Origin: a virus
Strand: one strand, 5' to 3'
Virus record (IMG/VR): IMGVR_UViG_3300042890_005662
Span: 1-21,628 of that record
Length of the DNA stretch: 21,628 nt
Program-made: the position numbers and the translations under genes
The notes under the pieces: model-generated
Told to the model about the DNA's origin: nothing
The model's input: only the letters and a program-made list of their open reading frames with translations
Database searches by the model: none
Shown: positions 1 through 17,067 of the stretch, piece after piece
Layout: each line of letters starts with the position of its first letter
Numbering within the stretch: position 1 is the first letter of the stretch

Positions 1-792
1 CGGGCGGAGCTGGAGTTCAAAACAGTGCTCTCGTTTTTAACGGATACGCACCTCCTTCAATGCGTAACTGTACTGAGGAATACAATGGAACATCATGGGC
101 GGCAAGCAATGCAATGATAACAGGTAGGTTTGGTTTAGGAGGTACAGGTACGCAAAATGCAGCTTTAGGATTTTCAGGAGCAACAAACCCACCTACTAAT
201 ACAGCTATTGTCACTTGTACTGAAGAATACGATGGAGCAACATGGGCAACAGGCGGTGCTATGATAGCTACTAGATGGTATTCACCGGGAGTTGGAACTC
301 AAAATGCAGCTTTAGCTGTTGGGGGTTCAGGAGCTGCTCCAACATATACAGCTTGTTCATGTACAGAAGAATATGATGGTACAGCATGGGCAGTAGCTAG
401 TGGTTTGATAACTGCTAGATTCGGTTCAGCGGCATCTGGAATACAAAATGCTAGTTTAGCATCTGGAGGTAATACAACTCCATCCGCTACTGCATGTACA
501 GAAGAATACAACGGAACAGTATGGGCAGCAGGTGGTGCATTAATTACAGCTAGAGATCAATCAGCAGGAGCCGGCTTTCAAAACTCAGGCCTCGTTTTTG
601 GAGGATCAACACCAACGTTAGTTAGCTGTACAGAAGCATATAATGGATCAACTTGGGCTACAGGCGGTGCTTTAATACAGGCTAGATATGCCCTTGAAGG
701 AGCAGGAACACAGAATGAAGCTTTAGCTTTTGGTGGTGCAAGCCCAGCTGGTGCTACAGGTTATGCCTGTACAGAAGAATATAGCGGTGCCC
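1..792 (+). repeat. Six-bladed propeller A (first blade partial)
   Basis: Blade boundaries taken at the conserved Trp give one partial and five full blades. Repeats are degenerate compared with the other propellers (for example AASNAMITGR and SPGVGTQNAALAVGG), and one blade has TEAY in place of TEEY. Confidence 0.8.
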
Positions 793-2114: not shown

Positions 2115-2117
2115 ACT

Positions 2118-4526
2118 ATGTCAAACGAATTTGTAGCCAGGAACGGTTTAATTTCTCCAGACAACTCTAGGGTTTCAGGATCCTTCAGAGCGACCGGATC
2201 ACTAGGTGTTACTGGAAGTGTAGGATTTAATTATCATACAGGTGGAGGTACTACACAAACTTTCCTCTATTCAAATTCAACAGGTAATATATCAGCAACA
2301 GGATCTCTATTTGGAACATCTTCATATGCCCTTACAGCATCTTATATAAACCTACCGCCCGTATTCCCTTTTACAGGATCGGCTCAAGTTAGCGGATCAT
2401 TAGGTGTAACAGGAAGTGTAGGATTTGGATATAATATAGTAGCCGGGTGGAGTGCTGGTGGTGCTTTAATTACTGCTAGAGAAAGTTTAGCAGGAGCAGG
2501 TACACAAAATTCAGGCTTAGCATTTGGAGGTATTGTAACATATGTTTGTACATGTACTGAAGAATATAACGGGTCAAGCTGGTTTACAGGCGGAGCTTTG
2601 AGTGTTGCTAGATATCTCTTAGCAGGAGTAGGAACACAAAATGCCGGCTTAGCATTTGGAGGTAGCGATGGATATAATCCTATATCATGTACAGAAGAAT
2701 ATAATGGATCGTCCTGGTCAACTGGTGGAGCTTTAATTACAGCTAGATTGTATTTAGCAGGAGCAGGAACACAAAATTCAGGCTTAGCATTTGGTGGAAT
2801 AACTACCACCCCAACATCAAGAGCATGTACTGAAGAGTACGATGGATCGACTTGGTCGGCAGGCGGTGCTTTAATTACTGCTAGACAAGGTTTAGCAGGA
2901 GCAGGAACACAAAATTCAGGCTTAGCATTTGGTGGAATAACTACCAACCCAACAACAGTAGCATGTACTGAAGAATATAACGGTACTTCTTGGTCGGTAG
3001 GAGGAGCATTGATTAGCTCTAGGTATGCTCTAGCCGGAGCAGGTACACAAAATGCTGCTTTAGGATTTGGAGGCACTCCTTCAGTTACCTGTACAGAGGA
3101 ATATGATGGATCTTCATGGTCTACAGGCGGTGCTTTAATTACTGGTAGAGCATTTTTAGCAGGAGCAGGTACACAAAATGCAGGACTTGCTTTTGGAGGA
3201 AATCCGGGGCAATCATGCACAGAAGAATATGCTGGCTCAAACCCCAACCCCCAAACCTTCAACTTCTCCAACACAACAGGCAATACATCTATCAGAACTA
3301 CATTTGTAGATGATACACTAGAGATATCAGGTTCTATAAAAACAATAAGTAATGTTCAATTTTGTTATTATACATCTGGTGTAGGGCCAGGAGGATCGTG
3401 GTCGGCAGGCGGTGCTATGATCACTGCTAGACATTTTTTAGCAGGAGCAGGTACTCAAAATGCAGGTCTTGCTTTTGGCGGTTATCCTACTTATAATTGT
3501 ACAGAGGAGTATGATGGATCTTCATGGTCAAACGGTGGAGCAATGATAAACGCTCAATTCCGTTTAGCAGGAGCAGGAACACAAAATGCAGCTTTAGCTT
3601 TTGGAGGAAGGCCGTCCCCAAATACCTGTACAGAGGAATATGATGGCGCCACTTGGACAGCAGGCGGTGCTTTAATTTCAGGTGGAGAGTATTTAGCAGG
3701 AGCAGGTACACAAAATGCCGGATTAGCATTTGGCGGAAACTATGGACCAGGCGCATGCACAGAAGAATATAACGGAACCTCTTGGTCTGCTGGTGGTGCT
3801 TTAATCGCTGGTAGAGATAGCTTAGCGGGAGCAGGTATACAAAACGCAGCTTTAGCATTTGGAGGATCTGCAGGAGCTTGTACAGAAGAATATAACGGAA
3901 CTTCATGGACAGCAGGCGGTGCTATGATTATTGGTAGAAAATGTTTAGCAGGAGCAGGCACACAAAATGCTGCTTTAGCCTTTGGAGGCAGTAGCGGATA
4001 CGGTGCCTGTACGGAAGAATATAACGGATCAACGTGGTCAACAGGCGGTACTCTAAATAATTCCAGATATGCATTAGCTGGAGCAGGAACACAAAATGCT
4101 GGACTTGCTTTTGGAGGGTTTTACGGGGCATATTTAGCCTGCACGGAAGAATACACAGGTGGAATAGGCCCTCTACTATCTTTCGATTACTGTGCCGAAA
4201 ACGGCATCACAACAGTATCATGCCTTATTGAAACATCAGCCCAGCGCTACAAAGATGATATCAAAGAATTAACATCACAGCTTGATAAAATTAACCAACT
4301 CAAACCTGTTGAATTTGATTGGAAAACCAACCGCAAACATGACATAGGATTGATTGCCGAAGAGGTAGCCAATGTTTATCCTGAAATAGTAAGTAAGGAT
4401 GAAGCAGGCGAGGTAGAGGGTATGAGCTATTCAAAAATTATAGCTCCGCTTATTAAAGCCATCCAAGAACAGCAGCAGCAAATTGCCGATCTTACGGCAA
4501 AAATCAATAAATTTAAGAACAAGTAA
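2118..4526 (+). CDS. Tail fibre/adhesin with two six-bladed kelch-like propellers and S74 chaperone domain
   Basis: 802 residues, complete. Residues 1-110 are a Gly/Ser/Thr-rich beta region with repeated V-T-G-S-V-type motifs and TSSYALTASYI, a style seen in environmental phage tail proteins and probably the virion-attachment part. Propeller one (six blades, 2448-3239) and propeller two (six blades, 3399-4160) are separated by a linker with FNFSNTTGNT. The S74 intramolecular chaperone follows, with the cleavage-site Ser at residue 707 (T-S-A-Q-R-Y-K), LKPVEFDW, IGLIAEEVANVYPE and a Gln-rich coiled coil. The start is the ATG four bases after the upstream stop; no Shine-Dalgarno sequence is visible. 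It is a paralogue of the preceding gene with the same domain order, which implies gene duplication. Role by inference: trimeric receptor-binding fibre. Confidence 0.88.
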   Translation: MSNEFVARNGLISPDNSRVSGSFRATGSLGVTGSVGFNYHTGGGTTQTFLYSNSTGNISATGSLFGTSSYALTASYINLPPVFPFTGSAQVSGSLGVTGSVGFGYNIVAGWSAGGALITARESLAGAGTQNSGLAFGGIVTYVCTCTEEYNGSSWFTGGALSVARYLLAGVGTQNAGLAFGGSDGYNPISCTEEYNGSSWSTGGALITARLYLAGAGTQNSGLAFGGITTTPTSRACTEEYDGSTWSAGGALITARQGLAGAGTQNSGLAFGGITTNPTTVACTEEYNGTSWSVGGALISSRYALAGAGTQNAALGFGGTPSVTCTEEYDGSSWSTGGALITGRAFLAGAGTQNAGLAFGGNPGQSCTEEYAGSNPNPQTFNFSNTTGNTSIRTTFVDDTLEISGSIKTISNVQFCYYTSGVGPGGSWSAGGAMITARHFLAGAGTQNAGLAFGGYPTYNCTEEYDGSSWSNGGAMINAQFRLAGAGTQNAALAFGGRPSPNTCTEEYDGATWTAGGALISGGEYLAGAGTQNAGLAFGGNYGPGACTEEYNGTSWSAGGALIAGRDSLAGAGIQNAALAFGGSAGACTEEYNGTSWTAGGAMIIGRKCLAGAGTQNAALAFGGSSGYGACTEEYNGSTWSTGGTLNNSRYALAGAGTQNAGLAFGGFYGAYLACTEEYTGGIGPLLSFDYCAENGITTVSCLIETSAQRYKDDIKELTSQLDKINQLKPVEFDWKTNRKHDIGLIAEEVANVYPEIVSKDEAGEVEGMSYSKIIAPLIKAIQEQQQQIADLTAKINKFKNK
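2448..3239 (+). repeat. Six-bladed propeller C
   Basis: Six blades of 42-46 residues. Blades three and four share an identical stretch of over 50 nt, running from the LAGAGTQN codons through FGGITT, which points to recent duplication or gene conversion. Confidence 0.9.
3399..4160 (+). repeat. Six-bladed propeller D
   Basis: Six blades. Conserved positions W, GGA, LAGAGTQN, LAFGG and CTEEY are near-invariant, while the loop between FGG and CTEEY varies in length and sequence. Confidence 0.9.
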
Positions 4527-4890: not shown

Positions 4891-5604
4891 ATGGACGAAA
4901 ATAAACAAGAATCAGGTCGCGAACTAGCAATTCCTAGTGATTTACAGAATATTCTAGCGGTTTTGAAACCGGAAGACGCTAGGGAAGTTGTAAGATTAAA
5001 AGAAGAACTGGCCGATAACTGGAATAAAAAACAAATTTTCCGTACTGAAACGGAAATGCGTGTATCGGTCTTGAATGATGCCAAGCATCCCACTCCGGCA
5101 TCTAAATACTGGCAGTCGGTTAGGGAAATGTCTGCGCACTTTGATGCGATGATGAATCTTTCATTTGAAATGAGAAGAGCCGATGTAGAAAGGCTCAGAC
5201 TCGAACGTAAAATGAAAGAAGCAGAACTTAAAGGTGATATGCTCGATATTATAGAGGCACAGATCGATTTAGATCAAAATCTCTACAATAAAGCCTGCAT
5301 GGAACAGGTAGCCCACGACCGTGTTCGTGAGATCCAGACTTGGTCTAAGATTAAAGCCGAACTCAACGATGGAACCTTCGACGATAGAGAGGTAAATACA
5401 CATCAGGCCGAAAGCTTAGGACTAAGGCTTGAAAATAGAGTAAAGGCTCTCAGTCCAAATAGTGAACCGAGTGAAGTTATTAACGCTGTAGGTCCTTATC
5501 AAACCCTGCAAAGACTCAAGGCCGAAGGTAATACACTTTTGACATTTGAACAGGCTCGTCAACAGCAGCTTGCCCAGCATGTTGAAAGCCAGCAACAACA
5601 GTAA
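4891..5604 (+). CDS. Coiled-coil protein of unknown function
   Basis: 237 residues, strongly charged and mostly helical. A probable coiled coil covers about residues 90-160, with repeated Arg/Glu/Leu heptad-like spacing (MRRADVERLRLERKMKEAEL). The C-terminus is Gln-rich (ARQQQLAQHVESQQQQ). No enzyme motif or membrane segment is visible. The start context AAACTTCGTTATG is nearly the same as at two oxygenase genes downstream, and the next gene begins eight bases after the stop, so it probably belongs to the same transcript as the oxygenases. Possible roles are a scaffold or an adaptor for the modification enzymes; nothing in the sequence decides this. Confidence 0.75.
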   Translation: MDENKQESGRELAIPSDLQNILAVLKPEDAREVVRLKEELADNWNKKQIFRTETEMRVSVLNDAKHPTPASKYWQSVREMSAHFDAMMNLSFEMRRADVERLRLERKMKEAELKGDMLDIIEAQIDLDQNLYNKACMEQVAHDRVREIQTWSKIKAELNDGTFDDREVNTHQAESLGLRLENRVKALSPNSEPSEVINAVGPYQTLQRLKAEGNTLLTFEQARQQQLAQHVESQQQQ

Positions 5605-5612
5605 ACTTAGTT

Positions 5613-6200
5613 ATGTTCATATACAGAAAAGAGAAGGCATTATCCTCTCAGTTATGTAAAGCTTTTATAGATGCGTTTGAAGTATCCGAAGATAAAAAAC
5701 CGGGCGTACTCTACGGCCCCGACGGTACTTCGTCATCTAACGGAAAAAAGTCAACAGACATAACTTTTGATCCTAGGTACTTGCAACATCCGACTTGGAG
5801 TCCTTTGCTAACAGAATTAGTAGGTATTTTAGAAAAAGGTCAACGAGATTATATTGACAGACATTCTCTAGCATTCTCTAAGCTTGATCCTTTGCAGATT
5901 AGCCCTCTATTCAATATGCAGCGCTACGAACCAGGAGAAGGATTTCACGGGTGGCATTGCGAAAGAGCAACAAACAAATACAGTAACAGGTTTCTAGTCT
6001 GGGCTGTTTACTTAAATACAGTAACAGATAGAGGTGAAACTGAATTTTTTTATCAGCACCATTTCGAATCAGCAGTCGAAGGAAAGTTAATAATATGGCC
6101 GTCGGACTGGATGCATTTACATAGAGGTGTTCCTTCTCCCACTCAAACAAAGTATATTTTAACAGGCTGGTTTACCATGCTTGATAGAACTGAAAAATAA
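5613..6200 (+). CDS. 2-oxoglutarate/Fe(II) oxygenase, prolyl-4-hydroxylase-like
   Basis: 195 residues. The double-stranded beta-helix core is recognisable: F-H-G-W-H-C-E supplies a proximal His115 with an acidic Glu117 in the H-x-D/E position, LNTVTDRGETEFF is the typical P4H strand, and FPS-like WPSDWMHLHRGVPSP gives the distal His (most likely His170). Lys180 lies ten residues later, where the family binds the 2-oxoglutarate C5 carboxylate. Expected reaction: hydroxylation of a carbon in a protein side chain or small molecule, using O2 and 2-oxoglutarate. Glu rather than Asp as the acidic iron ligand is less usual. It is the first of five oxygenases in a row. The substrate is unknown; nearby fibre proteins are candidates by context. 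The start follows the context AAACTTAGTTATG. Confidence 0.82.
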   Translation: MFIYRKEKALSSQLCKAFIDAFEVSEDKKPGVLYGPDGTSSSNGKKSTDITFDPRYLQHPTWSPLLTELVGILEKGQRDYIDRHSLAFSKLDPLQISPLFNMQRYEPGEGFHGWHCERATNKYSNRFLVWAVYLNTVTDRGETEFFYQHHFESAVEGKLIIWPSDWMHLHRGVPSPTQTKYILTGWFTMLDRTEK

Positions 6201-6206
6201 ATTGTT

Positions 6207-6818
6207 ATGTTTCCATTAAAGCCGTACAATAATTTTAAGCCACAATCTAACTGGAATACGTTTTACTATTTTAAAAACGTATTTAATGATCGTATGATCG
6301 GAGAACTGGAGCAGATGGTTAAAGCAAACTATAAATTTTCCAAGGGTAGGACTGGTGTAAGAGAATTAGGTACCGATACTGATTCCTACCAAACAAATAA
6401 CCGAGATATTGCCTACCTTGAACCAGCCCCGCATACAAAATGGCTTTATGATATTTTATTTCCGCTAGTATTAGAAGCTAACGAAAAAGCATTTCATTTT
6501 GATATCGATGTTGTTACCGATCCCATCCACTATGTAGTCTACCCAACTGATGGAGGGCACCTGGACTGGCATATGGACGTAGGTGCTCTCGATGTTAATA
6601 AAAGAAAGATCGCTACTACTGTTCAATTATCAGATCCTAGGGATTATGAAGGAGGCGATTTTGAGATCTGGTTTGGTGGTCAAAAATCAGTAGTTGTGCC
6701 CAGGGAGAAAGGAGACGTTATTTGCTTTCCAGCATTCTGCATGCATAGAGTAAAACCAATCACACGAGGCCAGCGTAAGTGTCTAGTATTTTGGACCGGC
6801 GGTCGCCCATTTAGATAA
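6207..6818 (+). CDS. 2-oxoglutarate/Fe(II) oxygenase, PKHD-type
   Basis: 203 residues. Iron ligands are clear: W-H-M-D gives His122 and Asp124, and FPAFCMHRVKPITRG gives His180. Arg190, ten residues after the distal His, fits the 2-oxoglutarate binding position. YEGGDFEIWFG and VPREKGDVICFP match the PKHD/PiuC-type prolyl hydroxylase pattern. This is the best-preserved active site of the five. It starts seven bases after the previous stop with a GTTATG context. Predicted to hydroxylate a protein or peptide side chain; the substrate is not shown by the sequence. Confidence 0.87.
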   Translation: MFPLKPYNNFKPQSNWNTFYYFKNVFNDRMIGELEQMVKANYKFSKGRTGVRELGTDTDSYQTNNRDIAYLEPAPHTKWLYDILFPLVLEANEKAFHFDIDVVTDPIHYVVYPTDGGHLDWHMDVGALDVNKRKIATTVQLSDPRDYEGGDFEIWFGGQKSVVVPREKGDVICFPAFCMHRVKPITRGQRKCLVFWTGGRPFR

Positions 6819-6832
6819 TTAAAAACTTAGTT

Positions 6833-7438
6833 ATGGAATTTAAAGTTTACGAACAGTTATGGTTCGCAACTCCGGTTTGGGAGTGTCCTGTATCAGGAAT
6901 CGATAATCAATCTATCAAGCAGTATTGCCTGGAAACCCGTAGACAGAAGCCCGGGGTTACGATTTCAAATCGAGGAGGATGGCATTCAGGCGAACTCCTC
7001 TTCCCAATTCCGGTAGCGTTAGAAAACCTCTTCAATGACTTGAACGTATTCGTCAACGATGTATGTGCTCGTTATACTGGAATCAATAACCTAGAGATAG
7101 GTAATTTCTGGATTAACATCAACGGACATCATGATTATAACCTATTACACGATCATCAGAACAGTATCTTGTCTGGGGTATACTATGTATCGGTTCCAAG
7201 AAATAACATGGGAGATTTAGTGCTACATAGGGGAGACGACATAGAATTCTTCATGAATAGTAAGGTACAGAGAGAGCATACAATGGCTAACGCATTTTCT
7301 GTGACAAAGCCAGCTAAAGAATCTACTTTCTACCTGTTTCCAAGTTGGATCAAACATCACGTAGAAAGAAACGAATCAAACGAAGAGAGAATCTCTATAG
7401 CATTTAATTTTATCAGTCCTTCACAAAAAAGTAATTAA
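6833..7438 (+). CDS. Putative 2OG-Fe(II) oxygenase, TIGR02466-like
   Basis: 201 residues. The pattern of the TIGR02466 / 2OG-FeII_Oxy_5 family is visible: an N-terminal FATPVWE, central NLLHDHQNSILSGVYYVSVP with His106 and His108, and a C-terminal FYLFPSWIKHHVERNES with distal His176, then Arg and ISIAFNF. The iron site in this family is less well characterised than in P4H; here the second proximal position is His or Asp107 rather than a plain H-x-D. The gene starts after AAACTTAGTTATG, the same 13-nt context as the first oxygenase. Hydroxylase activity is inferred from the fold. Confidence 0.8.
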   Translation: MEFKVYEQLWFATPVWECPVSGIDNQSIKQYCLETRRQKPGVTISNRGGWHSGELLFPIPVALENLFNDLNVFVNDVCARYTGINNLEIGNFWININGHHDYNLLHDHQNSILSGVYYVSVPRNNMGDLVLHRGDDIEFFMNSKVQREHTMANAFSVTKPAKESTFYLFPSWIKHHVERNESNEERISIAFNFISPSQKSN

Positions 7439-7442
7439 GGTT

Positions 7443-8102
7443 ATGAATATAGCAGGGAGTAGTGCTAAAGTTTTTGAAATGTTTCCAACTCCGCTGTATG
7501 TAGCAACATACCCGGGAGATACAACTGAAATAGTTAAGTACTTCGATAGTTGCGAAATGAACGATGGAAAAAATAGCCCTTATGGTTGGATATCAAAAAA
7601 TAGCTATATAATTGATCATCCAATCTGTAAACCGCTGGCTAATTTTTTCATGCAATGCTTTAATGACTTTGCCACTAACGTAATGAGGTATCGCTATAAG
7701 GAATTGCAGTTTTCTCAATCGTGGCTTACCTATAAAATGCCCGGTCAATTTCACAAAGCACATACTCACCCAAACACTCTACTTGCCGGCGTATTTTATT
7801 ACGATTTTGAACCCGGGGATGCAGCTATTTGCTTTAGTAAAGTAGCTGGATCTCAGTATAGAACTTATTTAGAACCCTCTCTACAGGACGATTATCAGCA
7901 GCATAAATTCTCTCAGGAGGAAATTTATTTTACACCGCAACAAAATAATTTCATTATATTTCCTTCATACGTTACACATGGTGTACCTCCCAATAGAACA
8001 AATAAAGTCAGGAAAGCATTAGGTGTAAACGTATTAACGAAAGGAACACTGGGCGATAAAGAAACCATTTCTGAAATAATATTTGGACGTTATGCAAATT
8101 AA
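7443..8102 (+). CDS. Putative 2OG-Fe(II) oxygenase, TIGR02466-like (tandem paralogue 1)
   Basis: 219 residues. Begins with the family signature F-P-T-P-L-Y. The central motif FHKAHTHPNTLLAGVFYY contains His107 and His109, and FIIFPSYVTHGVPPNRT contains the distal His179. Downstream R-K-A-L-G-V-N-V takes the place of the R-x-S-x-A-F-N strand. It resembles the next gene along its whole length, so the two look like an old tandem duplication. It starts four bases after the upstream stop and is translationally packed with its neighbours. Confidence 0.8.
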   Translation: MNIAGSSAKVFEMFPTPLYVATYPGDTTEIVKYFDSCEMNDGKNSPYGWISKNSYIIDHPICKPLANFFMQCFNDFATNVMRYRYKELQFSQSWLTYKMPGQFHKAHTHPNTLLAGVFYYDFEPGDAAICFSKVAGSQYRTYLEPSLQDDYQQHKFSQEEIYFTPQQNNFIIFPSYVTHGVPPNRTNKVRKALGVNVLTKGTLGDKETISEIIFGRYAN

Positions 8103-8730
8103 TTATGAAATACTGGAGTTGTTCCCAACCCCGGTTTACGCTACCACGCTGCCCGTGCAGTATGCAAAGGTAATTAAGTTCTTCGATGGTCAAGACATGG
8201 GTACCGATTCCGATCATGATAACTACGGGTTCAGATCTAAGGATAGCTATTTGTTAGATAAACCTGAATGTGCGACATTAGCTGAATTTATCTTAGGTAA
8301 CGTGAAGGTGTATGCCGAGAAGCTAGGATACGCCTATAATGAATATAGATTCGGACAATCTTGGGTCTCTATAAAAGCCCCAGGACAGCACCATACTGCA
8401 CATACTCACCCAAATAGTCTACTCTCAGGAGTACTCTATTACGGACATGCAGCTGAAAAAACATCGGCTATCAAGTTTCATAGAACAGCAGGCGGTGTTA
8501 ATGCATCTTATATTTCCCCAAAGCTAGTAAAAGATAAAAAAGACTTAAGGTATGCACAGCAGGAATTCGCTATAACATTTGAACCAGGCCTGTTAATACT
8601 ATTCCCTTCTCATCTCATGCATTCGGTACCGGTCAATAAGACTGATAAACCTAGATGCAGTTTAGCATTCAACGTAGTACCTAAAGTAGGATTTGGAGAG
8701 GAAGAGAACTTAACTGAATTAATATTTTAA
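8092..8730 (+). CDS. Putative 2OG-Fe(II) oxygenase, TIGR02466-like (tandem paralogue 2)
   Basis: 212 residues from the ATG at 8092, which overlaps the upstream gene by 11 nt and sits in the recurrent GTTATG context. A TTG at 8083 would add three residues but seems less likely. Signature FPTPVY near the N-terminus; HHTAHTHPNSLLSGVLYY with His104 and His106; LILFPSHLMHSVPVNKT with distal His177; then CSLAFNV. Closest relative in the window is the preceding gene. The stop codon overlaps the ATG of the glycosyltransferase gene (T-A-A-T-G), so the two are probably translationally coupled. Confidence 0.82.
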   Translation: MQINYEILELFPTPVYATTLPVQYAKVIKFFDGQDMGTDSDHDNYGFRSKDSYLLDKPECATLAEFILGNVKVYAEKLGYAYNEYRFGQSWVSIKAPGQHHTAHTHPNSLLSGVLYYGHAAEKTSAIKFHRTAGGVNASYISPKLVKDKKDLRYAQQEFAITFEPGLLILFPSHLMHSVPVNKTDKPRCSLAFNVVPKVGFGEEENLTELIF

Positions 8731-9653
8731 TGAAACAAGAACAAGGATACATATACCACTCAAACAGGAATATTGGAGATAAATTTTTTATCTGGCATAT
8801 ACAGGGAGGATTAGGTAAAAATATTGCAGCAACCTCTCTATGTAAAGATATAAAAGAAGCTTTTCCTGACAGAAAGCTGATAATGGTAGTATCCTATCCA
8901 GAAGCATTTCTAAATAACCCTTATATCGATAGGGTATACAATTTAACACAAGCACCCTACTTCTATGAAGACTATATCTACGAGAAAGATATCATTGTCT
9001 GTAGACACGAACCCTACAATCAAACAGGACATATTACTAAAACAAAGCATTTGATTGAAAACTGGTGCGATCTACTGGGTATAAAATATACTGAACAACA
9101 GCCCCAAGTATTTGCAAACTACGTACAAAGACAATTAGTCGGTCTTTGGAAAAGACAAAAACCAACAATAGTTATTCAAACAGGGGGAGGACCGGGCCAA
9201 GGTCAAAAGTATAATTACTCCTGGACCCGCGATATGCCTCAAGATATAGCCCAGGCAATTGTAAATAAATTCAGAAATCAATACCACATATTTCAAGTAA
9301 CTAGACCCGACGGATATCACCTAGACGGGGTAGAGAGAATAGACCAACAGCTATCCAATATTGAGTTATTTGCAATACTAGTTGATGCACAGAAACGCGT
9401 TCTAATCGATTCTTGTCTACAGCATGCTGCTGCCGCATTCAAACTTCCATCGACAGTACTATGGGTAGGAACTTCGCCGACAGTATTCGGATATAGATTA
9501 CATAAAAATGTAGTTGCAAACCTACCCAAGAAAGCAAATCAGCTCATAGGATCGTATCTCTTTGATTTTCAATTTGAAAATAATCTACACGAATGTCCTT
9601 ACATGGAGTTAACAGACATGTTTAATATTGACGAAATACTCAATAACATTTGA
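8730..9653 (+). CDS. GT9-like (heptosyltransferase superfamily) glycosyltransferase
   Basis: 307 residues. The N-terminal Rossmann half has GGLGKNIAATSLCKDIKEAF (residues 26-45), a glycine-rich loop placed as in ADP-heptose:LPS heptosyltransferases, followed by DRKLIMVVSYPEAFLNNPYI and DRVYNL, which match the 'hypothetical neighbour protein' pattern of the family. The C-terminal half has RVLIDSCLQHAAAAFKLPST with Asp227 and His232, then LWVGTSP, in the position of the donor-site D-S-x-x-x-H-x-A motif. A GT-B-fold transfer of a sugar from a nucleotide donor is predicted. The acceptor could be host surface glycan or, given five hydroxylases in the same operon, a hydroxylated residue on a phage protein. 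No membrane segment is visible. Ends before an ATATTTAT element that starts the next unit. Confidence 0.72.
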   Translation: MKQEQGYIYHSNRNIGDKFFIWHIQGGLGKNIAATSLCKDIKEAFPDRKLIMVVSYPEAFLNNPYIDRVYNLTQAPYFYEDYIYEKDIIVCRHEPYNQTGHITKTKHLIENWCDLLGIKYTEQQPQVFANYVQRQLVGLWKRQKPTIVIQTGGGPGQGQKYNYSWTRDMPQDIAQAIVNKFRNQYHIFQVTRPDGYHLDGVERIDQQLSNIELFAILVDAQKRVLIDSCLQHAAAAFKLPSTVLWVGTSPTVFGYRLHKNVVANLPKKANQLIGSYLFDFQFENNLHECPYMELTDMFNIDEILNNI

Positions 9654-9686: not shown

Positions 9687-10646
9687 ATGAAAGTTTGCGG
9701 ACCTCCTAACCTAGTTATATCAGGCCAAGCGGTTTTAACACTTGGAAGAGCAGACGATACTGCTATAGAGGGCGCTATATGGTATAATAAATTATTACAG
9801 AAAGTACAGTATACCGGGCTTGGTAATGGAGCATGGGCGGCAGGCGGTGCTTTAATCACTGCTAGAAACGGGCTCGCCGGAGCAGGTACTCAAAACTCAG
9901 CCCTCGCATTCGGGGGTAGTACTCCAACAGTAGTATCTTGTACAGAAGAGTATAATGGATCATCTTGGGCAGCAGGCGGAGCTTTAATTACCGCTAGATA
10001 TCTTTTAGCTGGAGCAGGTACTCAAAATGCTGGTCTCGCTTTCGGAGGTGGTATACCAACTATAGTAGCTTGTACTGAAGAATATAACGGAACAGCCTGG
10101 TCGACAGGTACTACTTTAATTACAGCTAGATTTAATTTAGCAGGAGCAGGAACACAAAATGCGGGGCTTGCTTTTGGAGGATATGCCGGAACTCCGGTTA
10201 GTAGTAACGTATCCTGTACGGAAGAGTATGACGGATCTAATTGGTCGGCCGGTGGAGCAATGATTAATGCCCGATGTATTCTAGCAGGAGTAGGTACACA
10301 AAATGCTGGTCTTGCATTTGGCGGACAGAACGGACCTATACTATCATGTACAGAAGAATATAACGGAACTAATTGGTCGGCAGGCGGCGCTATGATTATT
10401 GGCAGGAGAACACTAGCTGGTGCAGGGACACAAAATGCAGGTTTAGCCTTTGGAGGTACAACTCCAAATGAGGCTTGTACAGAGGAATACAATGGTATAT
10501 CATGGTTAGCAGGCGGCGCATTAATTACCGGTAGAGGTAGTTTAGCAGGCGCAGGTACATTTGCTAAAGCTCTTGCTTTTGGAGGAGATCCAAATGTAGC
10601 ATGCACAGAAGAATACAATACAGTACCAGTCATATGCTGCTTCTAA
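9687..10646 (+). CDS. Compact adhesin: head domain plus one six-bladed kelch-like propeller
   Basis: 319 residues. Residues 1-49 form a head domain shared with the next two genes (PNLVISGQAVLTLG, then A-I-E-G-A-I-W-Y-N-x-x-x-x-K-V-Q-Y-T-G), a pattern common at the virion-attachment end of phage tail proteins. Residues 50 to about 311 are six propeller blades. The last strand ends in V-P-V-I-C-C-F, which could close the ring. There is no S74 domain, unlike the two larger fibre genes. First of three tandem paralogues. Inferred to be a receptor-binding or fibre-tip protein whose specificity lies in the blade loops. Confidence 0.82.
   Translation: MKVCGPPNLVISGQAVLTLGRADDTAIEGAIWYNKLLQKVQYTGLGNGAWAAGGALITARNGLAGAGTQNSALAFGGSTPTVVSCTEEYNGSSWAAGGALITARYLLAGAGTQNAGLAFGGGIPTIVACTEEYNGTAWSTGTTLITARFNLAGAGTQNAGLAFGGYAGTPVSSNVSCTEEYDGSNWSAGGAMINARCILAGVGTQNAGLAFGGQNGPILSCTEEYNGTNWSAGGAMIIGRRTLAGAGTQNAGLAFGGTTPNEACTEEYNGISWLAGGALITGRGSLAGAGTFAKALAFGGDPNVACTEEYNTVPVICCF
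9834..10620 (+). repeat. Six-bladed propeller E
   Basis: Six blades. In the sixth blade the TQNA segment is replaced by TFAKA, the only such replacement in this propeller. Confidence 0.9.
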
Positions 10647-10647
10647 A

Positions 10648-10655
10648 ATATTTAT
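10648..10655 (+). promoter_or_regulatory. ATATTTAT promoter-like octamer
   Basis: 26 nt before the ATG at 10682. It follows TTCTAA, as does the site at 9661. Confidence 0.55.
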
Positions 10656-10681
10656 AATAGAAAGGACAACACCACATATCA

Positions 10682-11632
10682 ATGAACATAGATAATTCAA
10701 ATTTAGTCATTACAGGATCGGCAGTACTGATACTTAATACAGTATCGAATACAACTACTGCTGGTAATATGTGGTTTAATCCTACATTAGGAAAAATACA
10801 GTTTACATTTGGATCAGGGAATAGTACATGGTCGGCAGGCGGTGCATTGATTACCTGTAGGACAGAAGGAGCAGGAGGGGCAGGCACACAAAATGCAGGT
10901 TTAGTATTTGGAGGAGGGGATGGTGGACCTAATCCTTTAAGAAATACAGAAGAATATAACGGAACATCGTGGGCAGCAGGCGGTAATTTAATTACGTGTA
11001 GATTTGGAGTAGGTGGAGCAGGAATCCAAAACGCAGGCCTTGCTTTTGGGGGAAATAATCCTTCAATTAATGTAGGAACATGCACAGAAGAATATAATGG
11101 ATCTTCTTGGTCAGCCGGCGGCGCTTTAATTAATGGTACATCTCAATTAGCGGGAGCGGGAACTCAAAACGCAGCATTAGCCTCTGGAGGTACTTCATAT
11201 GTATCGTGCACAGAAGAATATAACGGAACTTCGTGGTTAGCAGGCGGTGCTTTAATATTCGGTAGAGAGTCGTCAGCAGGAGCAGGAACACAAAATGCAG
11301 CTCTTTCTTTTGGTGGACAAGGATATACTTGTACAGAAGAATATGACGGATCAGCATGGGCTACAGGCGGTGCACTGATTAACGGTGTTACTAAATTAGC
11401 AGGTGCAGGAAGCCAAAATGCAGGTCTTGCATTTGGCGGATCACCGGGATATGCCTGCACGGAAGAATATAACGGAACTGTATGGTCGACAGGCGGTGCT
11501 TTGATTACTGGTAGACAACAATTAGCAGGAGCAGGAACACAAGCTAGCGGACTTGCTTTTGGAGGGAGTCCATCTGGAGCATCATGCACAGAAGAATACA
11601 ACGGAATATCAATATGTACAATCCCAGAATAA
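10682..11632 (+). CDS. Compact adhesin: head domain plus one six-bladed kelch-like propeller
   Basis: 316 residues, second of the three tandem paralogues. Head residues 1-49 have SNLVITGSAVLIL and G-N-M-W-F-N-P-T-L-G-K-I-Q-F-T. Six blades follow to about residue 308, then the closing strand S-I-C-T-I-P-E. The first blade is atypical: it reads RNTEEYNG with no Cys, has TEGAGGAG in place of the LAGAG segment, and shows ITCR, as does blade two. Blade four carries FGGQGYTCTEEY, identical in protein and over 34 nt of DNA to a blade in the next gene. Confidence 0.82.
   Translation: MNIDNSNLVITGSAVLILNTVSNTTTAGNMWFNPTLGKIQFTFGSGNSTWSAGGALITCRTEGAGGAGTQNAGLVFGGGDGGPNPLRNTEEYNGTSWAAGGNLITCRFGVGGAGIQNAGLAFGGNNPSINVGTCTEEYNGSSWSAGGALINGTSQLAGAGTQNAALASGGTSYVSCTEEYNGTSWLAGGALIFGRESSAGAGTQNAALSFGGQGYTCTEEYDGSAWATGGALINGVTKLAGAGSQNAGLAFGGSPGYACTEEYNGTVWSTGGALITGRQQLAGAGTQASGLAFGGSPSGASCTEEYNGISICTIPE
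10829..11605 (+). repeat. Six-bladed propeller F
   Basis: Six blades. The first lacks the Cys found in the CTEEY motif of every other blade of the window. Confidence 0.9.
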
Positions 11633-11657
11633 ACAATAAAAACATCAACAATACAAC

Positions 11658-12605
11658 ATGTTAATTAACGGCCCTAATTTAACACTTTCAGGTACTGCAG
11701 TTTTGGTGCTTGGTAAAACACCAACACCAGAGATTGAAGGCAGTATGTGGTATGATGAAGATGAGGGGAGAGTTAAATATACCGGACCGCAAGCTTGGTC
11801 AACGGGTGGCGCTATGATTTACGCTAGGTTCGAATTAGCAGGAGCAGGTACACAAAACGCAGGTCTTGCTTTTGGAGGGAGGGCACTCCCCCCTGTCAAC
11901 AGTGTATCTTGTACAGAAGAATATGATGGAACTTCTTGGACAGCGGGTGGTGCTTTAGCTAGTGCTCGACATGGATTAGCAGGAGCAGGAACACAAAACG
12001 CCGGACTTGCTTTTGGAGGTTTTTACTCACCGTATGTACTTAGATGTACAGAAGAATATGATGGATCATCATGGTCAGCAGGAGGTGCTTTAATTACTGG
12101 TAGATATTACTTAGCAGGAGCAGGAACACAAAATGCCGCTTTAGCTGTTGGAGGAGACAGCCCATATGGAGCATGTACAGAAGAATATGATGGATCATCA
12201 TGGTCAGCAGGAAGCGCGTTAATTACCGCTAGAAAATATTTAGCAGGAGCAGGTACACAAAACGCTGGGCTTGTTTTTGGAGGAGAAGATAACGCTTCAA
12301 TTGTCTCTTGCACAGAAGAATACAATGGATCTGCTTGGTCAGCAGGCGGTGCTTTGATTACTGCTAGATTTGCTTTAGCAGGAGCAGGAACACAAAACGC
12401 CGGACTTGCTTTTGGTGGACAAGGATATACTTGTACAGAAGAGTATAATGGATCTACTTGGACAGCAGGTTGTGCTTTAAGTACTGCTAGATATGCATTA
12501 GCAGGGGCAGGTACACAAAATGCAGCTCTTGCATTTGGGGGCATTACCGGACCAACAGAAGTAGCATGCACAGAAGAATATAGTTATATAGTCTGTACTT
12601 TATAA
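11658..12605 (+). CDS. Compact adhesin: head domain plus one six-bladed kelch-like propeller
   Basis: 315 residues, third of the tandem paralogues. Head residues 1-46 have PNLTLSGTAVLVLG and E-G-S-M-W-Y-D-E-D-E-G-R-V-K-Y-T-G. Six blades follow, and the protein ends Y-S-Y-I-V-C-T-L. This is the only one of the three without an ATATTTAT element in its 25-base leader, so it may be co-transcribed with the gene before it. The leader is A-rich (AAACAATAAAAACATC) with no Shine-Dalgarno sequence. Role inferred as for its paralogues: a host-recognition protein with variable blade loops. Confidence 0.82.
   Translation: MLINGPNLTLSGTAVLVLGKTPTPEIEGSMWYDEDEGRVKYTGPQAWSTGGAMIYARFELAGAGTQNAGLAFGGRALPPVNSVSCTEEYDGTSWTAGGALASARHGLAGAGTQNAGLAFGGFYSPYVLRCTEEYDGSSWSAGGALITGRYYLAGAGTQNAALAVGGDSPYGACTEEYDGSSWSAGSALITARKYLAGAGTQNAGLVFGGEDNASIVSCTEEYNGSAWSAGGALITARFALAGAGTQNAGLAFGGQGYTCTEEYNGSTWTAGCALSTARYALAGAGTQNAALAFGGITGPTEVACTEEYSYIVCTL
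11796..12584 (+). repeat. Six-bladed propeller G
   Basis: Six blades. Blade five shares 34 identical nt (12409-12442) with propeller F (11307-11340). Confidence 0.9.
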
Positions 12606-12651: not shown

Positions 12652-13473
12652 ATGAGACAAAAAATATTTTATCAAAGCTCACTTCCTAGAGCCGGTTCAA
12701 CATTACTACAAAACCTCATTGGACAAAATCCTGATTTTCATGTTACGCCTACCTCCGGTATGATTGATCTAGTACTAGGTGCTAGAATTGGTTATAACGG
12801 AAACAAAGAAGCATACGCTGGGGATAAAGAAATGTGGCGTGACGGGTTTTATGCCTTCTGTAGAGAGGGACTAAGAGGTTATATCGAAAATTTAACTGAC
12901 AAGCCTTACATTCTAGACAAAAATAGAAATTGGGGTTCTGTTTACTCCTTAGTGAATAACATTTATCCAAATCCTAAAATGCTATACATGGTAAGGGATT
13001 TGAGAGCGGTATTTGCTTCTATGGAGAAAAAATTTAGAGCCAATCCCGATAGAGATCAGGGTGAAATAGACAATGCTAAATTAACGGGTTTAACTACACA
13101 GCAGCGAGTAGAAAAATGGGCCGTAGGACATCCAATAGGGCATGCAGTACCAAAGCTATATCAAGCAATACTTGATAAGACAGCTCAAAACTTTCTTATT
13201 ATTAGATATGAGGATCTCTGCACTAAACCAGAGGCAATGATGCAGAGTATCTATCAATATCTTGAAGTACCTTATTACCAACATAACTTCAGCCATATAC
13301 CTCAAATCACAGTAGAAGATGATACCGTACACGGTATTTATGGCGATCATACAATTAGAAATACATTAGGTGCTCTACCTGATGATTCAAGAGACATATT
13401 AGGCGATTACACCTACGAATGGATCTACAACAGTCACAAATGGTTCTTTGACATATTCGGTTATAAAAAATGA
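12652..13473 (+). CDS. PAPS-dependent sulfotransferase
   Basis: 273 residues. The 5'-phosphosulfate loop is S-S-L-P-R-A-G-S-T-L-L (residues 9-19), matching the P-R-(S/A)-G-(S/T)-T signature of the Sulfotransfer_3 group, which includes tyrosylprotein sulfotransferases and bacterial RaxST. The 3'-phosphate motif is V-R-D-L-R-A-V-F-A-S, with Arg115 and Ser123 at the classical eight-residue spacing. It would move the sulfuryl group of PAPS to a hydroxyl on a protein, glycan or small molecule. No signal peptide or membrane segment is seen, so it should act in the host cytoplasm. It is the first gene of a unit that continues with an APS-kinase-like protein (4-nt overlap). The protein or sugar acceptor cannot be told from the sequence. 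Confidence 0.87.
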   Translation: MRQKIFYQSSLPRAGSTLLQNLIGQNPDFHVTPTSGMIDLVLGARIGYNGNKEAYAGDKEMWRDGFYAFCREGLRGYIENLTDKPYILDKNRNWGSVYSLVNNIYPNPKMLYMVRDLRAVFASMEKKFRANPDRDQGEIDNAKLTGLTTQQRVEKWAVGHPIGHAVPKLYQAILDKTAQNFLIIRYEDLCTKPEAMMQSIYQYLEVPYYQHNFSHIPQITVEDDTVHGIYGDHTIRNTLGALPDDSRDILGDYTYEWIYNSHKWFFDIFGYKK

Positions 13474-13925
13474 TTATAGTATTATTCGGACAGCCCCACT
13501 GCGGTAAGTCTACCCTGGCAAAAAAATTAGTAAACGAACAGTGTTTCGGTGAATACTGGAATATTGACGGAGATGAACTGCGTGAAATCTTTAAAAACAA
13601 AAATTTCAGTAGAAAAGGCCGTATTCAAAATCTGAATAGAGCCAGTGATATTGCTCACTACATGAATAGTATAGGTAGTGACGGTATTATTCTATCTCTC
13701 GTATATCCTTATAAAGAAGCACGTAACTACCTTAAGAATCTGACCGACGATGTTAAGTGGATATACTTGACCTACGAAGGGGAAAGAGGGAGAGAAAAAT
13801 TTCACGTGCAAGATTTTGAAATACCAGAAAAAGAACGTATATTACATTTAGACACGTCTAAGTTATCAATATCCGAATGCGTAGATGCAATAAAACGCTA
13901 TACTAATGAAGAACTACCTAGCTAA
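13470..13925 (+). CDS. cysC-like: APS (adenylylsulfate) kinase-like protein
   Basis: 151 residues. Walker A G-Q-P-H-C-G-K-S-T lies at residues 7-15. NIDGDELREIF carries the D-G-D motif typical of APS kinases, and FSRKGRIQNLNRASDIAHYM corresponds to the family stretch F-S-x-x-D-R-x-E-N-x-R-R. SLVYPYKEARNYL replaces the usual I-S-P-Y-R-x-x-R. Expected reaction: APS + ATP to PAPS + ADP. It is about 40-50 residues shorter than typical bacterial CysC, and the Asp of D-R-x-x-N-x-R is changed to Gly, so activity needs proof. Overlaps the sulfotransferase gene by four bases (A-T-G-A) and the next gene by 20, which ties PAPS production to its use. Confidence 0.78.
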   Translation: MIIVLFGQPHCGKSTLAKKLVNEQCFGEYWNIDGDELREIFKNKNFSRKGRIQNLNRASDIAHYMNSIGSDGIILSLVYPYKEARNYLKNLTDDVKWIYLTYEGERGREKFHVQDFEIPEKERILHLDTSKLSISECVDAIKRYTNEELPS

Positions 13926-14292
13926 AGCAGAACATAAGTCCGGAGAGTGGGCAATGTTCATCGGGAGATGGCAGCCCTGGCATTCTGGGCATAGATGGTT
14001 AATTGATCAAGCTCTCGAAGAAGGAAAAAAGGTACTTCTCTGTATTCGCGATGTCCCTGTTAGCGAGAAGAACCCGTGGACGGCTCAAGAGATTCTTATG
14101 AACCTATCGAGCGAACTAAGAGATCTCCTAGAAACAGGAAAATTACATATCATGAAAATTCCCGATATCGAATCGGTTAATATCGGAAGAGGAATAGGCT
14201 ACGACGTAATAGAACATGTACCTCCTCAAGAGATCCATGATATATCTGCAACCAAAATCCGTGAACAAATGAAACAGGAGGGAAAATTATGA
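13906..14292 (+). CDS. HxGH-motif nucleotidyltransferase (adenylyl-/cytidylyltransferase superfamily)
   Basis: 128 residues. FIGRWQPWHSGHRWLID contains the H-S-G-H signature (residues 26-29), and D-I-S-A-T-K-I-R (113-119) is the I-S-x-T-x-I-R nucleotide-binding motif. W-T-A-Q-E-I resembles the central part of NMN adenylyltransferases. The fold joins a nucleotide monophosphate to a phosphate-type acceptor and releases pyrophosphate. Relatives include NMN adenylyltransferase, glycerol-3-phosphate cytidylyltransferase and, more distantly, ATP sulfurylase. Its place between an APS kinase and a DUF2061 gene suggests a role in sulfate activation, but NAD or sugar-nucleotide chemistry remain possible. 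The ATG at 13906 overlaps the kinase gene by 20 nt. An ATG at 13954 (Met17), after G-G-A-G-A-G, would give a start closer to the motif. Confidence 0.8.
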   Translation: MKNYLAKAEHKSGEWAMFIGRWQPWHSGHRWLIDQALEEGKKVLLCIRDVPVSEKNPWTAQEILMNLSSELRDLLETGKLHIMKIPDIESVNIGRGIGYDVIEHVPPQEIHDISATKIREQMKQEGKL

Positions 14293-14522
14293 TAGACGTA
14301 AAAGTAAGGTGGAATACCCAGTGTAAGGATAATCATAGCTTTTGGCGAATACTAGTCGACGGACAAGAACGTATTTGCTCAAATGTTATCTTTCAACTCC
14401 CTGTACATACAACCCGAGATACAGTCTGGGATTCGATTAGGAATCAAGAAGTTGAAAAACACCACGTAAGCTGTACTGCAGTAGAGGTAATTTGGAAGGG
14501 AGATGTAGTAATAGTAAGATGA
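14289..14522 (+). CDS. Small protein of unknown function in the sulfation cluster
   Basis: 77 residues, family not recognised. Compact, probably alpha/beta, with two Cys-x-n pairs (C12, C30, C61) and several aromatic residues (SFWRILVDG, VWDSIRNQEVEKHH). There is no signal or membrane segment. The ATG overlaps the upstream stop (A-T-G-A) and is preceded by G-G-A-G-G-G, one of the few good Shine-Dalgarno-like sequences in the window, though it lies inside coding sequence. Its stop overlaps the next ATG in the same way. This double coupling argues that it works with the sulfate-activation enzymes, perhaps as a subunit or partner; no activity can be assigned. Confidence 0.75.
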   Translation: MIDVKVRWNTQCKDNHSFWRILVDGQERICSNVIFQLPVHTTRDTVWDSIRNQEVEKHHVSCTAVEVIWKGDVVIVR

Positions 14523-14746
14523 TAGTTGAAAGAAAACGACATATAGCAAAAACCGTAAGCTATCGAGTTATCAGCACTCTAATTGGCTTTATAATAATGT
14601 GGGGAGTATCAGGTTCAGTCAAAATAGGTGCGGCATTTGGTATCGCCGAACTAGTCTATAAGCCTATTCAATACTATATACACGAAAGGATATGGTATAG
14701 GTGGATTAATTACGGACTTAGGAAAGAAGAAGATAGAAAGGTTTAA
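14519..14746 (+). CDS. DUF2061 small membrane protein
   Basis: 75 residues from the ATG at 14519, which overlaps the upstream stop by four bases; a TTG at 14492 would add nine residues and is less likely. The sequence fits the DUF2061 pattern: basic start with K-T-V-S-Y-R (11-16), a hydrophobic segment STLIGFIIMWGVSG (19-32), a second segment from IGAAFGIAELVYKP (36-49), and the closing Y-Y-I-H-E-R-I-W (52-59). DUF2061 proteins are known to occur beside or fused to sulfate-assimilation genes such as cysC in bacteria, which fits this cluster. The biochemical role of the family is unknown. Expected location: host inner membrane. Confidence 0.85.
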   Translation: MIVERKRHIAKTVSYRVISTLIGFIIMWGVSGSVKIGAAFGIAELVYKPIQYYIHERIWYRWINYGLRKEEDRKV

Positions 14747-15297: not shown

Positions 15298-17067
15298 ATG
15301 GCAGAAGCATTAATTTCACCAGGTGTATTCCTAAGAGAAAACGACCTTTCCCAGGTAACTGCAGGTCCAGTAACAGTAGGAGCCGCCTTAATCGGTCCAA
15401 CCGTTGTAGGTAGACCTAATATCCCAACACTCGTAACTTCCTATTCTCAGTATAAAGCTAGATTCGGAACTACCTTTGTATCTAACAGTAACACCTACGA
15501 GTATTTAACTTCGCAAGCCGCTTATAACTACTTCCAACAAGGAGGTACTTCACTTCTTGTAACGAGAGTTGCTAGTGGATCCTATACAGCAGCGACTTCA
15601 TCCCTTATCCCTTGTAGTCTTGCTGGCGAGACTCCTTTCGTACTTGAAACCCTTTCAGTAGGTACTATTATGAACAATAACCAGGGTGCAACAACAGCAC
15701 TCAACGGTATTCTACCTTCAGGGTCTATAAATAATATTAGATGGCAAGTTACTCAAGCCGATTCAGCTTCCGGCCTCTTTACTCTTTTGATTAGAAGAGG
15801 AGATGATTATACAGCCAACCAAACCGTACTTGAGACTTGGACAAACCTTTCTCTTGATCCTAATCAGAATAACTATATTGCCTACGTAATCGGTGATCAA
15901 ACCCAAACCGTAGCTACAGATAGCGATGGACAGCAATATTTAGAGATTACCGGTAGCTATCCTAACTCATCATTATATGTACGTGTTAGAAACGTTAACC
16001 TACCGACTCCTAACTACCTAAATCCACAAGGCCGTCCTTATGCCGCCTACACCGCCTCAATTCCTTTGAACGGTAGCGGATCTCAAAACGGTGCTTTCGG
16101 TGGTGCTGTAGGTCCCTTGTACGGTTGTTTCGGTCTTGCTCCATTGAACTTATTCGAGCAAATCCCAACTATAACTTCAGTAGGTTCTAACTCAGCAACA
16201 AATATTCAAGGTGTATTCCCTGACAATTACGCTACTGCTATCAATTTGCTGGCCAATCAAGACCAGTACGTATATGATTCGATATATGCTCCAGGTATCA
16301 CAAATCAAAACGCTACCTCAATAATCAGTAGCCTTCTTGCAATGGTTCAGAATCGTGGAGATGCTATTGCAGTAGTTGATATGGTTGGATATAATCAAGC
16401 CATTAACCTTGTAACTACAGCAGCGCAGTCTTACGACAATAGCTATGGTGCTACATATTGGCCATGGTTACAGGTTCGCTCAATCGAAACCGGACGTCTG
16501 AACTTCGTACCTGCTTCAGTAATTATCCCCGGAGTATACGAGTACAACGATAAGGTATCAGCTGAGTGGTTTGCACCCGCTGGTCTAAATCGCGGAGGTC
16601 TTCCAACTGTAATCCAGCCTGAAAGACGTCTAACTGTAGGTCAACGTAATACATTATATACAGGTCGCGTTAACCCAATCGCAGTATTCCCCGGTCAAGG
16701 TACAGTAGTATATGGACAAAAGACACTACAAGCTCGTGCTTCTGCACTAGATAGAGTGAATGTACGTCGTCTATTGATCGCCCTTAAGAGCTATATCGGT
16801 CAGATTGCCCAGACTTTGGTATTCGAGCAGAATACAGCCGTTACACGTAATCGTTTCCTATCTCAAGTTAATCCATATCTTGATTACGTACAACAGCGTC
16901 AAGGTCTATATGCCTTCCGTGTAGTAATGGATGAGACCAATAATACACCAGATGTAATTGACCGTAACCTTCTTGTAGGTGCTATTTACCTACAGCCTAC
17001 TAGAACAGCTGAATTCATTCAACTTGATTTCAACATCTTACCAACCGGTGTTACGTTTGGTGCATAA
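15298..17067 (+). CDS. Contractile tail sheath protein
   Basis: 589 residues, typical for myovirus sheath proteins. The N-terminus ISPGVFLRENDLS, then G-P-T-V-V-G-R-P, is the usual sheath opening, whose arm links to neighbouring subunits. The middle contains the variable outer domains. The conserved C-terminal part has WPWLQVRSIETGR, VPASVIIPGVYEYND, the stretch around RRLTVGQRNTLYTGRVNPI, and VNVRRLLIALKSYIGQ; it ends with the inner strands NLLVGAIYLQPTRTAEFIQL. These subunits surround the tail tube and contract on infection. Followed at 17851 by the tube gene, the standard pairing. The start is the ATG after an A-rich leader (AAATAAATTATTAAA). Confidence 0.96.
   Translation: MAEALISPGVFLRENDLSQVTAGPVTVGAALIGPTVVGRPNIPTLVTSYSQYKARFGTTFVSNSNTYEYLTSQAAYNYFQQGGTSLLVTRVASGSYTAATSSLIPCSLAGETPFVLETLSVGTIMNNNQGATTALNGILPSGSINNIRWQVTQADSASGLFTLLIRRGDDYTANQTVLETWTNLSLDPNQNNYIAYVIGDQTQTVATDSDGQQYLEITGSYPNSSLYVRVRNVNLPTPNYLNPQGRPYAAYTASIPLNGSGSQNGAFGGAVGPLYGCFGLAPLNLFEQIPTITSVGSNSATNIQGVFPDNYATAINLLANQDQYVYDSIYAPGITNQNATSIISSLLAMVQNRGDAIAVVDMVGYNQAINLVTTAAQSYDNSYGATYWPWLQVRSIETGRLNFVPASVIIPGVYEYNDKVSAEWFAPAGLNRGGLPTVIQPERRLTVGQRNTLYTGRVNPIAVFPGQGTVVYGQKTLQARASALDRVNVRRLLIALKSYIGQIAQTLVFEQNTAVTRNRFLSQVNPYLDYVQQRQGLYAFRVVMDETNNTPDVIDRNLLVGAIYLQPTRTAEFIQLDFNILPTGVTFGA

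Follow-up and report, generated by a model that had tools for sequence, protein, structure and literature searches.

Several described systems resemble in part the gene arrangement reported here. In the RaxST/RaxP/RaxQ locus of Xanthomonas, genes for the synthesis of the sulfate donor 3'-phosphoadenosine 5'-phosphosulfate (PAPS) stand beside that of the sulfotransferase that uses it, RaxP and RaxQ being of the CysD and CysN-C type. In the bifunctional PAPS synthetase, an adenosine 5'-phosphosulfate (APS) kinase is followed by an ATP sulfurylase. TibC heptosylates an adhesin protein, TibA. Short viral cysC genes, with phage APS kinases of 109-135 residues modelled, have been proposed together with cysH to boost host sulfate assimilation in sediments, in a study whose accessible part mentions no partner nucleotidyltransferase (PMC9529941), and the function of the sulfotransferases of OM43 phages is reported as unclear in the accessible part of another (PMC10580990). 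Here we analyse a virus record of 21,628 bases from a water-borne phage (IMG/VR IMGVR_UViG_3300042890_005662; this whole stretch is called the window), in which five overlapping genes, ST, KIN, NT, U77 and DUF2061, form a cassette that would make PAPS in the infected cell and sulfate a glycan. We give this reading a probability of roughly 0.6.

The cassette shares with Rax the placing of donor synthesis beside its user, and to this extent the analogy drawn in an earlier note on this DNA fits. By contrast, a 128-residue HxGH enzyme, which is not of the presumed CysDN/CysC type of RaxP and RaxQ, appears to hold the place of ATP sulfurylase, and a sugar is a likelier acceptor than the peptide tyrosine of the Rax model. 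The relatives of this enzyme include fusions in the order of the bifunctional PAPS synthetase, but it lies outside the Sat family and is much smaller. As in the viral CysC study, the phage APS kinase is short. As in the TibC/TibA pair, a GT9-fold transferase of the window has adhesin genes close by, but oxygenases and sulfation come on top of it, and the acceptor is predicted.

A predicted sulfation cassette among myophage tail genes

The window covers a region of myophage tail genes, as identified by Pfam and PHROG scans, with a sheath gene (15298-17067) followed by tube and baseplate-like genes, and with propeller-repeat fibres at 3-4526 and 9687-12605. The cassette consists of the following genes:

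ST, 12652-13473, plus strand: 273 aa, predicted PAPS-dependent sulfotransferase (Sulfotransfer_3)
KIN, 13470-13925, plus strand: 151 aa, kinase of the APS kinase family with a shortened lid
NT, 13906-14292, plus strand: 128 aa, HxGH nucleotidyltransferase, putative mini ATP sulfurylase (sulfate adenylyltransferase)
U77, 14289-14522, plus strand: 77 aa, predicted accessory protein of the KIN-NT module
DUF2061, 14519-14746, plus strand: 75 aa from the ATG at 14519, small hydrophobic protein

With this ATG start (the open reading frame (ORF) caller had placed a TTG start at 14492, giving 84 aa), the frames overlap by 4, 20, 4 and 4 nt, as previously noted, and the three adhesin genes said to lie directly upstream are indeed there, all of them of PHROG 27227. 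Overlaps occur at all four junctions of the cluster versus 2 of 21 elsewhere in the window (one-sided Fisher p = 0.0012), in a test for which the analyst chose genes from the ORF list and in which one of the two outside overlaps hangs on a TTG start. Since four further IMG/VR contigs, which differ from it in length, contain a near-identical block, the cluster is not an assembly artefact.

We propose that NT would convert ATP and sulfate into APS, as broad genome context indicates, that KIN would phosphorylate APS at the 3' position to yield PAPS, and that ST would pass the sulfate of PAPS to an acceptor, the last two steps following from family-level evidence. U77 and DUF2061, the latter common in bacterial cys operons, would be accessory parts of the activation module; as a guess, DUF2061 might serve in sulfate supply or membrane anchoring and U77 as a small subunit.

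ST belongs to Pfam family PF13469 (Sulfotransfer_3; 63.4 bits, cut-off 27). Across 18 aligned ST sequences PR[AS]GST, TPTSG, R115 and S123 are conserved, the first being the 5' phosphosulfate loop and R115/S123 the 3' phosphate Arg/Ser. The PAPS-type sulfotransferase that the P-R-A-G-S-T loop and Arg115/Ser123 had suggested is thus borne out, and at family level ST is very probably PAPS-dependent. With nearly the same confidence, again at family level, we regard KIN as a short-lidded APS kinase. It matches PF01583 (41 bits, cut-off 21.1) and, when aligned with full-length CysC, retains the P-loop, DGD and R..N positions, with a lid ~18 residues shorter than that of ordinary CysC. Its earlier description as APS-kinase-like therefore holds for the Pfam family, but not for the full lid or the stricter NCBIfam cut-offs. 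A search with KIN in the 'phages' set gave no match at 1e-3.

A candidate ATP sulfurylase with an NMNAT-like fold

NT matches CTP_transf_like (PF01467, 30.1 bits, cut-off 21), and its AlphaFold model (predicted local distance difference test, pLDDT, 89) has the fold of nicotinamide mononucleotide (NMN) adenylyltransferases (NMNAT) and phosphopantetheine adenylyltransferases (PPAT), in agreement with its identification as an HxGH nucleotidyltransferase. Foldseek retrieves 4yp7 (E 5.8e-4), and VIA-align superposes NT on NMNAT/PPAT-fold chains with Z ~10 over 107-117 residues; ATP sulfurylase chains are missing from the VIA-align list, which counts neither way. NT shares with NMNATs, including the archaeal-type enzyme NadM, the GRxQPxHxGH motif, but has invariant residues of its own in an alignment of 29 NT sequences (G94 R95 G98 Y99 and S114 I118 R119; R21 is also invariant and R48 nearly so) and neighbours from sulfur metabolism.

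These neighbours emerged when GTDB genomes were searched with no other query than the NT alignment, which yielded 486 relatives; the best 80 were analysed in loci of up to 7 kb, APS kinases being counted as neighbours within 1.5 kb. Thirty-five of the 80 loci contain aprB or aprA, 26 have NT beside an APS kinase and nine have it fused to one; the rest comprise eight with another context and two where no NT ORF could be recovered. The aprBA loci, 35 in number, are without exception labelled SAR11, and outside SAR11 an APS kinase is present in 33 of 42 loci. By record title, the sources range over Marinimicrobia, Bacteroidota, archaea of marine group III, Haladaptatus plasmids, Acidobacteria and SAR11, and a few of the contigs (L128, L162) are phage-like as judged by eye. 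Checks on example neighbours gave 993 bits for AprA (cut-off 641.75), 188.6 for AprB (135.65), 270 for the CysC of L147 (138.7) and 172.4 for the kinase part of the L129 fusion (138.7); the CysQ-like neighbour of NT in SAR11 stays under its cut-off (203 bits, cut-off 228.8). The order kinase then NT was checked in L129 and read by eye in the fusions L131 and L144. Three Nitrospira-type loci contain NT, or an NT match, plus a sulfite-reductase-like gene, and sulfotransferases above the Pfam cut-off share the locus with NT in L147, L144, L107 and L124. A 623-aa neighbour in L132 was not counted, its sulfotransferase-like part being under the Pfam cut-off (18.8 vs 23.2).

A survey of 60 genomes of the SAR11 family (NT taken as strong at E < 1e-20, aprA above cut-off) found NT in 21 of the 24 genomes with aprA versus 8 of the 36 without (Fisher p = 7.9e-7; such p values are guides only and overstate independence, because the compared genomes share ancestry and many are incomplete, which counts against giving them full weight). 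The ATP sulfurylase family PF01747 is present in 3 of the 60, two of these among the 24 with aprA. In the order to which G025 belongs (Flavobacteriales, going by the title of L168), represented by 196 genomes, CysD occurs in 1 of 7 with NT versus 124 of 189 without it (p = 0.0097; PF01747 was not searched there). Twenty-nine NT genomes picked from the 80 loci divide into 21 with neither PF01747 nor CysD above cut-off, one other with CysD and seven with PF01747.

On this genome context we consider it likely that NT is a sulfate adenylyltransferase. KIN and NT together probably make PAPS for ST, because NT is found with aprBA or APS kinase genes and because DUF2061 is linked both to the pair and to cys genes. 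NT is not a Sat family member, since it fails that profile, and would nevertheless work like one. Somewhat less firmly, we favour the view that ATP sulfurylases come in a third type next to Sat and CysDN, represented by NT, namely an NMNAT-fold enzyme of ~110-130 residues present in phages, Marinimicrobia, marine Bacteroidota, archaea and SAR11, which in SAR11 would complete aprBA sulfite oxidation and which phages would pair with a short APS kinase to produce PAPS and sulfate virion glycans. No title or abstract opening in the literature covered, which mostly leaves out subscription journals, announces either an ATP sulfurylase of the NMNAT type or a KIN-NT pair in phages.

In SAR11, the commonest bacteria of the ocean, NT (L140:6959-7336 and others) often directly precedes a gene for a membrane protein, which is followed by aprB, aprA and what looks by eye like an exporter gene; from its position between NT and aprB, we take the membrane protein to be AprM. 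NT is a natural candidate for sulfate adenylyltransferase because the APS reductase or kinase would otherwise have no APS-handling adenylyltransferase partner, and in SAR11 it may supply the final step that sulfite oxidation seemed to lack, where an ADP-forming variant (APS + phosphate) may be conceivable. Most SAR11 are said to be without ATP sulfurylase though APS reductase is present (PMC10356861). One small enzyme family may bear both on phage sulfotransferases and on the ATP sulfurylase missing from SAR11. If this is true, a widespread gene whose current annotation is merely NMN- or cytidylyl-transferase-like has to be re-annotated, and phages gain a self-contained PAPS supply.

Distribution of the cassette in phages

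Among 80 IMG/VR loci fetched by NT, 78 contain KIN and 34 an ST relative; in the two loci without KIN, L032 and L048, the contig itself begins just 1.9 and 0.1 kb ahead of NT. This pairing, together with the APS kinase and reductase genes around prokaryotic NT, supports a single pathway of sulfate activation and transfer. The central idea of the earlier note was right in substance and extends further than it supposed, whereas the Rax analogy and the adhesin link are weaker. When ST served as the query, the best 80 of 494 relatives (46 loci after dereplication at 90% ST identity) included 48 loci with KIN and NT (30 of the 46).

The two accessory genes follow the pair to different degrees. U77 belongs to no known family, weak Pfam matches under cut-off being disregarded. 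Searched alone, it led to 27 IMG/VR loci, all of which contain KIN and NT; it is present in 21 and absent in 27 of the 48 ST loci with the pair, and homologues adjoin KIN-NT in L107 and L162 too. DUF2061 (PF09834, 57.1 bits, cut-off 23.1) occurs in 45 of the 48 ST loci with KIN and NT versus 2 of the 32 without (p = 2.7e-16), or 28 of 30 versus 1 of 16 after dereplication (p = 4e-9). A prokaryote search with DUF2061 alone found cysC, cysD or cysQ within ~1.5 kb in 20 of the 40 loci read (all of them among the 30 that the order survey had supplied, none among the 10 others), with the order cysQ-DUF2061-cysC-cysD in L298 and a PAPS-reductase-domain gene beside DUF2061 in L317, which suggests a role in sulfate assimilation. 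In many genomes of the surveyed order (L298, L316-L338), DUF2061 lies near cysQ/cysC/cysH/cysD.

A second phage group (L063-L096) also carries KIN-NT, with U77 in 7 of its 34 loci. Some of its contigs exceed 300 kb, and its pair stands mostly, as seen by eye, beside a DNA-methyltransferase-like gene. Ten of these loci have a sulfotransferase-like gene, c29, whose nature is unconfirmed.

The acceptor and the genes upstream

Three further features of the window bear on the acceptor of the sulfate:

GT9-fold glycosyltransferase, 8730-9653, plus strand: assigned from predicted structure and Foldseek
Five tandem 2-oxoglutarate (2OG)-Fe(II) oxygenases, 5613-6200, 6207-6818, 6833-7438, 7443-8102 and 8083-8730, plus strand: Pfam PF13640 or PF13759, PHROG 61/81
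Three propeller/kelch-like adhesins, 9687-12605, plus strand: PHROG 27227, candidate modification carriers

The model of the first of these (pLDDT 83) has a GT9 fold, its Foldseek matches being 3tov, a GT9 structure (E 4.3e-11), WaaF 1psw (1.4e-8), TibC 4rb4 (2e-8) and WaaC; no GT9 family is found among its Pfam matches up to E 1, and a profile search of solved chains is empty up to E 1. Homologues of this gene are present in 68 of the 80 ST loci (38 of the 46 dereplicated). The five oxygenases, a striking number side by side, each lie above a Pfam cut-off, and relatives of the last three occur in 36 of the 80 loci (22 of 46). The adhesins match PHROG 27227 with E 3e-41 to 3e-55. As propeller fibre relatives are found in 25 of the 80 ST loci (14 of 46), we rejected the adhesins as an obligate partner. 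Adhesins and cassette are separable, given fibres in 25 loci versus KIN and NT in 48, and their independent carriage, which the earlier note had named as a danger to its proposal, is in part what we see.

In L255-L264, oxygenases, ST, fibres and the GT9 gene form a row without KIN-NT; host PAPS can apparently serve there, making the activation module an add-on. Other loci (L009, L025, L027 and others) hold between KIN and NT a block of cupin, HAD-like, cytidylyltransferase-like, PfkB-kinase and epimerase-like genes (the cupin of L027 and the PfkB of L032 confirmed by Pfam, the rest read by eye), which we take to be reminiscent of ADP-heptose synthesis. ST itself has an N-terminal extension in L026, L036 and L041, and in L041 (3733-5145) the extra part is an FkbM methyltransferase domain above the Pfam cut-off.

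Because of the GT9 fold, the wide occurrence of the GT9 homologue in ST loci, the FkbM-ST fusion and the ADP-heptose-like genes, the acceptor is, on balance, likely to be a sugar. The GT9-fold glycosyltransferase encoded close by would attach it, plausibly to residues of the fibres that the five oxygenases have hydroxylated, which would result in a sulfated virion surface. That the sugar is carried on the phage's own fibres is a more tentative proposal, made from gene position alone, to which we grant slightly less than an even chance. If true, some virions bear sulfated glycans, which suggests a possible relevance to host binding.

Alternative explanations

The alternative that survives best, although we hold it to be rather unlikely, accepts PAPS synthesis and sulfation and places the target on the host surface, in a sugar of the capsule or lipopolysaccharide (LPS), where it might, for example, prevent superinfection. 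WaaC and WaaF, both matched by the GT9 fold, build LPS, and in L147 NT and several sulfotransferases have membrane proteins as neighbours, which by eye resemble a flippase and a polymerase. However, the fold matches equally include TibC, with its protein substrate, and the cassette is flanked by fibre genes and a sheath gene, in a region of late virion genes.

PAPS synthesis for a glycan sulfotransferase must also be weighed against the improbable possibility that KIN and NT make another nucleotide-activated donor (NAD-salvage or phosphoramidate-like) and that the adjacent sulfotransferase is incidental. A series of observations counts against our main reading, and several of them fit this other donor. 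NT is closest in sequence to NMNAT-like enzymes, as it is in fold to NMNAT/PPAT, and fails the ATP sulfurylase profile PF01747 (13.4 bits, cut-off 24.3), while KIN remains far under the NCBIfam/PRK APS kinase cut-offs (TIGR00455, 38.4 vs 138.7 bits). Stenotrophomonas phages, reached via PHROG 10255 'kinase', have a kinase-NT fusion (L102:5620-6351, L103:4587-5327) among unrelated genes, one of which, in one such phage, encodes a NADAR domain; no sulfotransferase is annotated in its vicinity. The second phage group has an ST relative in 0 of its 34 loci, a count that concerns ST relatives and leaves room for other sulfotransferase families, and DUF2061 in 1 of 34, so that the linkage of DUF2061 to the pair holds in ST phages and not everywhere. 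The genes c29 and c112 look by eye like extra sulfotransferase families; Pfam and profile comparison did not confirm this (for c112, the sub-cut-off Pfam matches were disregarded), and neither was counted. Among the 80 ST loci, 32 are without the KIN-NT pair and 55 without fibres, some of them being short contigs. PF01747 is found in 7 of the 29 NT genomes, including three Nitrospira-type and two SAR11. Of the 21 SAR11-family genomes that carry NT as well as aprA, only 11 have the two ≤7 kb apart, and in the other 10 NT is farther away on the same contig (5) or on a different contig (5); eight genomes carry NT without aprA. In four of these eight, the NT frame has 258-289 aa and resembles the kinase-NT fusions L145 and L179, and similar frames exist in three aprA-positive genomes.

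What speaks for PAPS is, first, that in 70 of the 80 prokaryotic loci (best 80 of 486) the NT family occurs in aprBA loci or beside or fused to an APS kinase, and second, that DUF2061 is common to cys operons. In addition, NT is shorter (128 aa) than solved NMNATs (168-181 aa) and far under the NCBIfam NMN adenylyltransferase cut-off (TIGR01527/NadM, 36.9 vs 181.2 bits), the fold being common to both. The prospect, raised in the earlier note, that the kinase and the nucleotidyltransferase would profile as unrelated enzymes with different substrates has half come true: NT has an NMNAT-like profile, yet its context is that of APS metabolism.

Still less probable is the sulfation of peptide tyrosine by ST, in the manner of RaxST or the tyrosylprotein sulfotransferases (TPSTs), although TPSTs are its closest solved chains by sequence (E 2.7e-8). 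The Glu of the TPST stretch GEETR is a catalytic residue, and GEETR aligns opposite TPTSG of ST, in a pairwise alignment that is weak. Tyrosine sulfation, previously the first choice, was demoted because ST associates with the GT9-fold gene, present in most of its loci, and has FkbM as a fusion partner in some phages, so that a sugar is the likelier acceptor. Least probable of all is an auxiliary metabolic cassette boosting host sulfate assimilation, as PMC9529941 reads short viral CysC genes and as DUF2061 in assimilatory operons might suggest, since Pfam and PHROG scans of the window's predicted genes detect neither a PAPS reductase nor a sulfite reductase, ST overlaps KIN by 4 nt, and the block sits among tail genes with a glycosyltransferase, oxygenases and fibres.

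Further observations on the tail region

Beside the oxygenases, a 237-aa ORF (4891-5604) has no Pfam or PHROG match at E 0.001. In the nearest relatives of the window (L024, L005, L007, L008), the three fibres between the GT9 gene and ST are missing. A gene of the tryptophan-halogenase family PF04820 stands among the oxygenase genes in L024 (1046-2518), its family being found also in L005, L007 and L008, and perhaps serves another virion modification.

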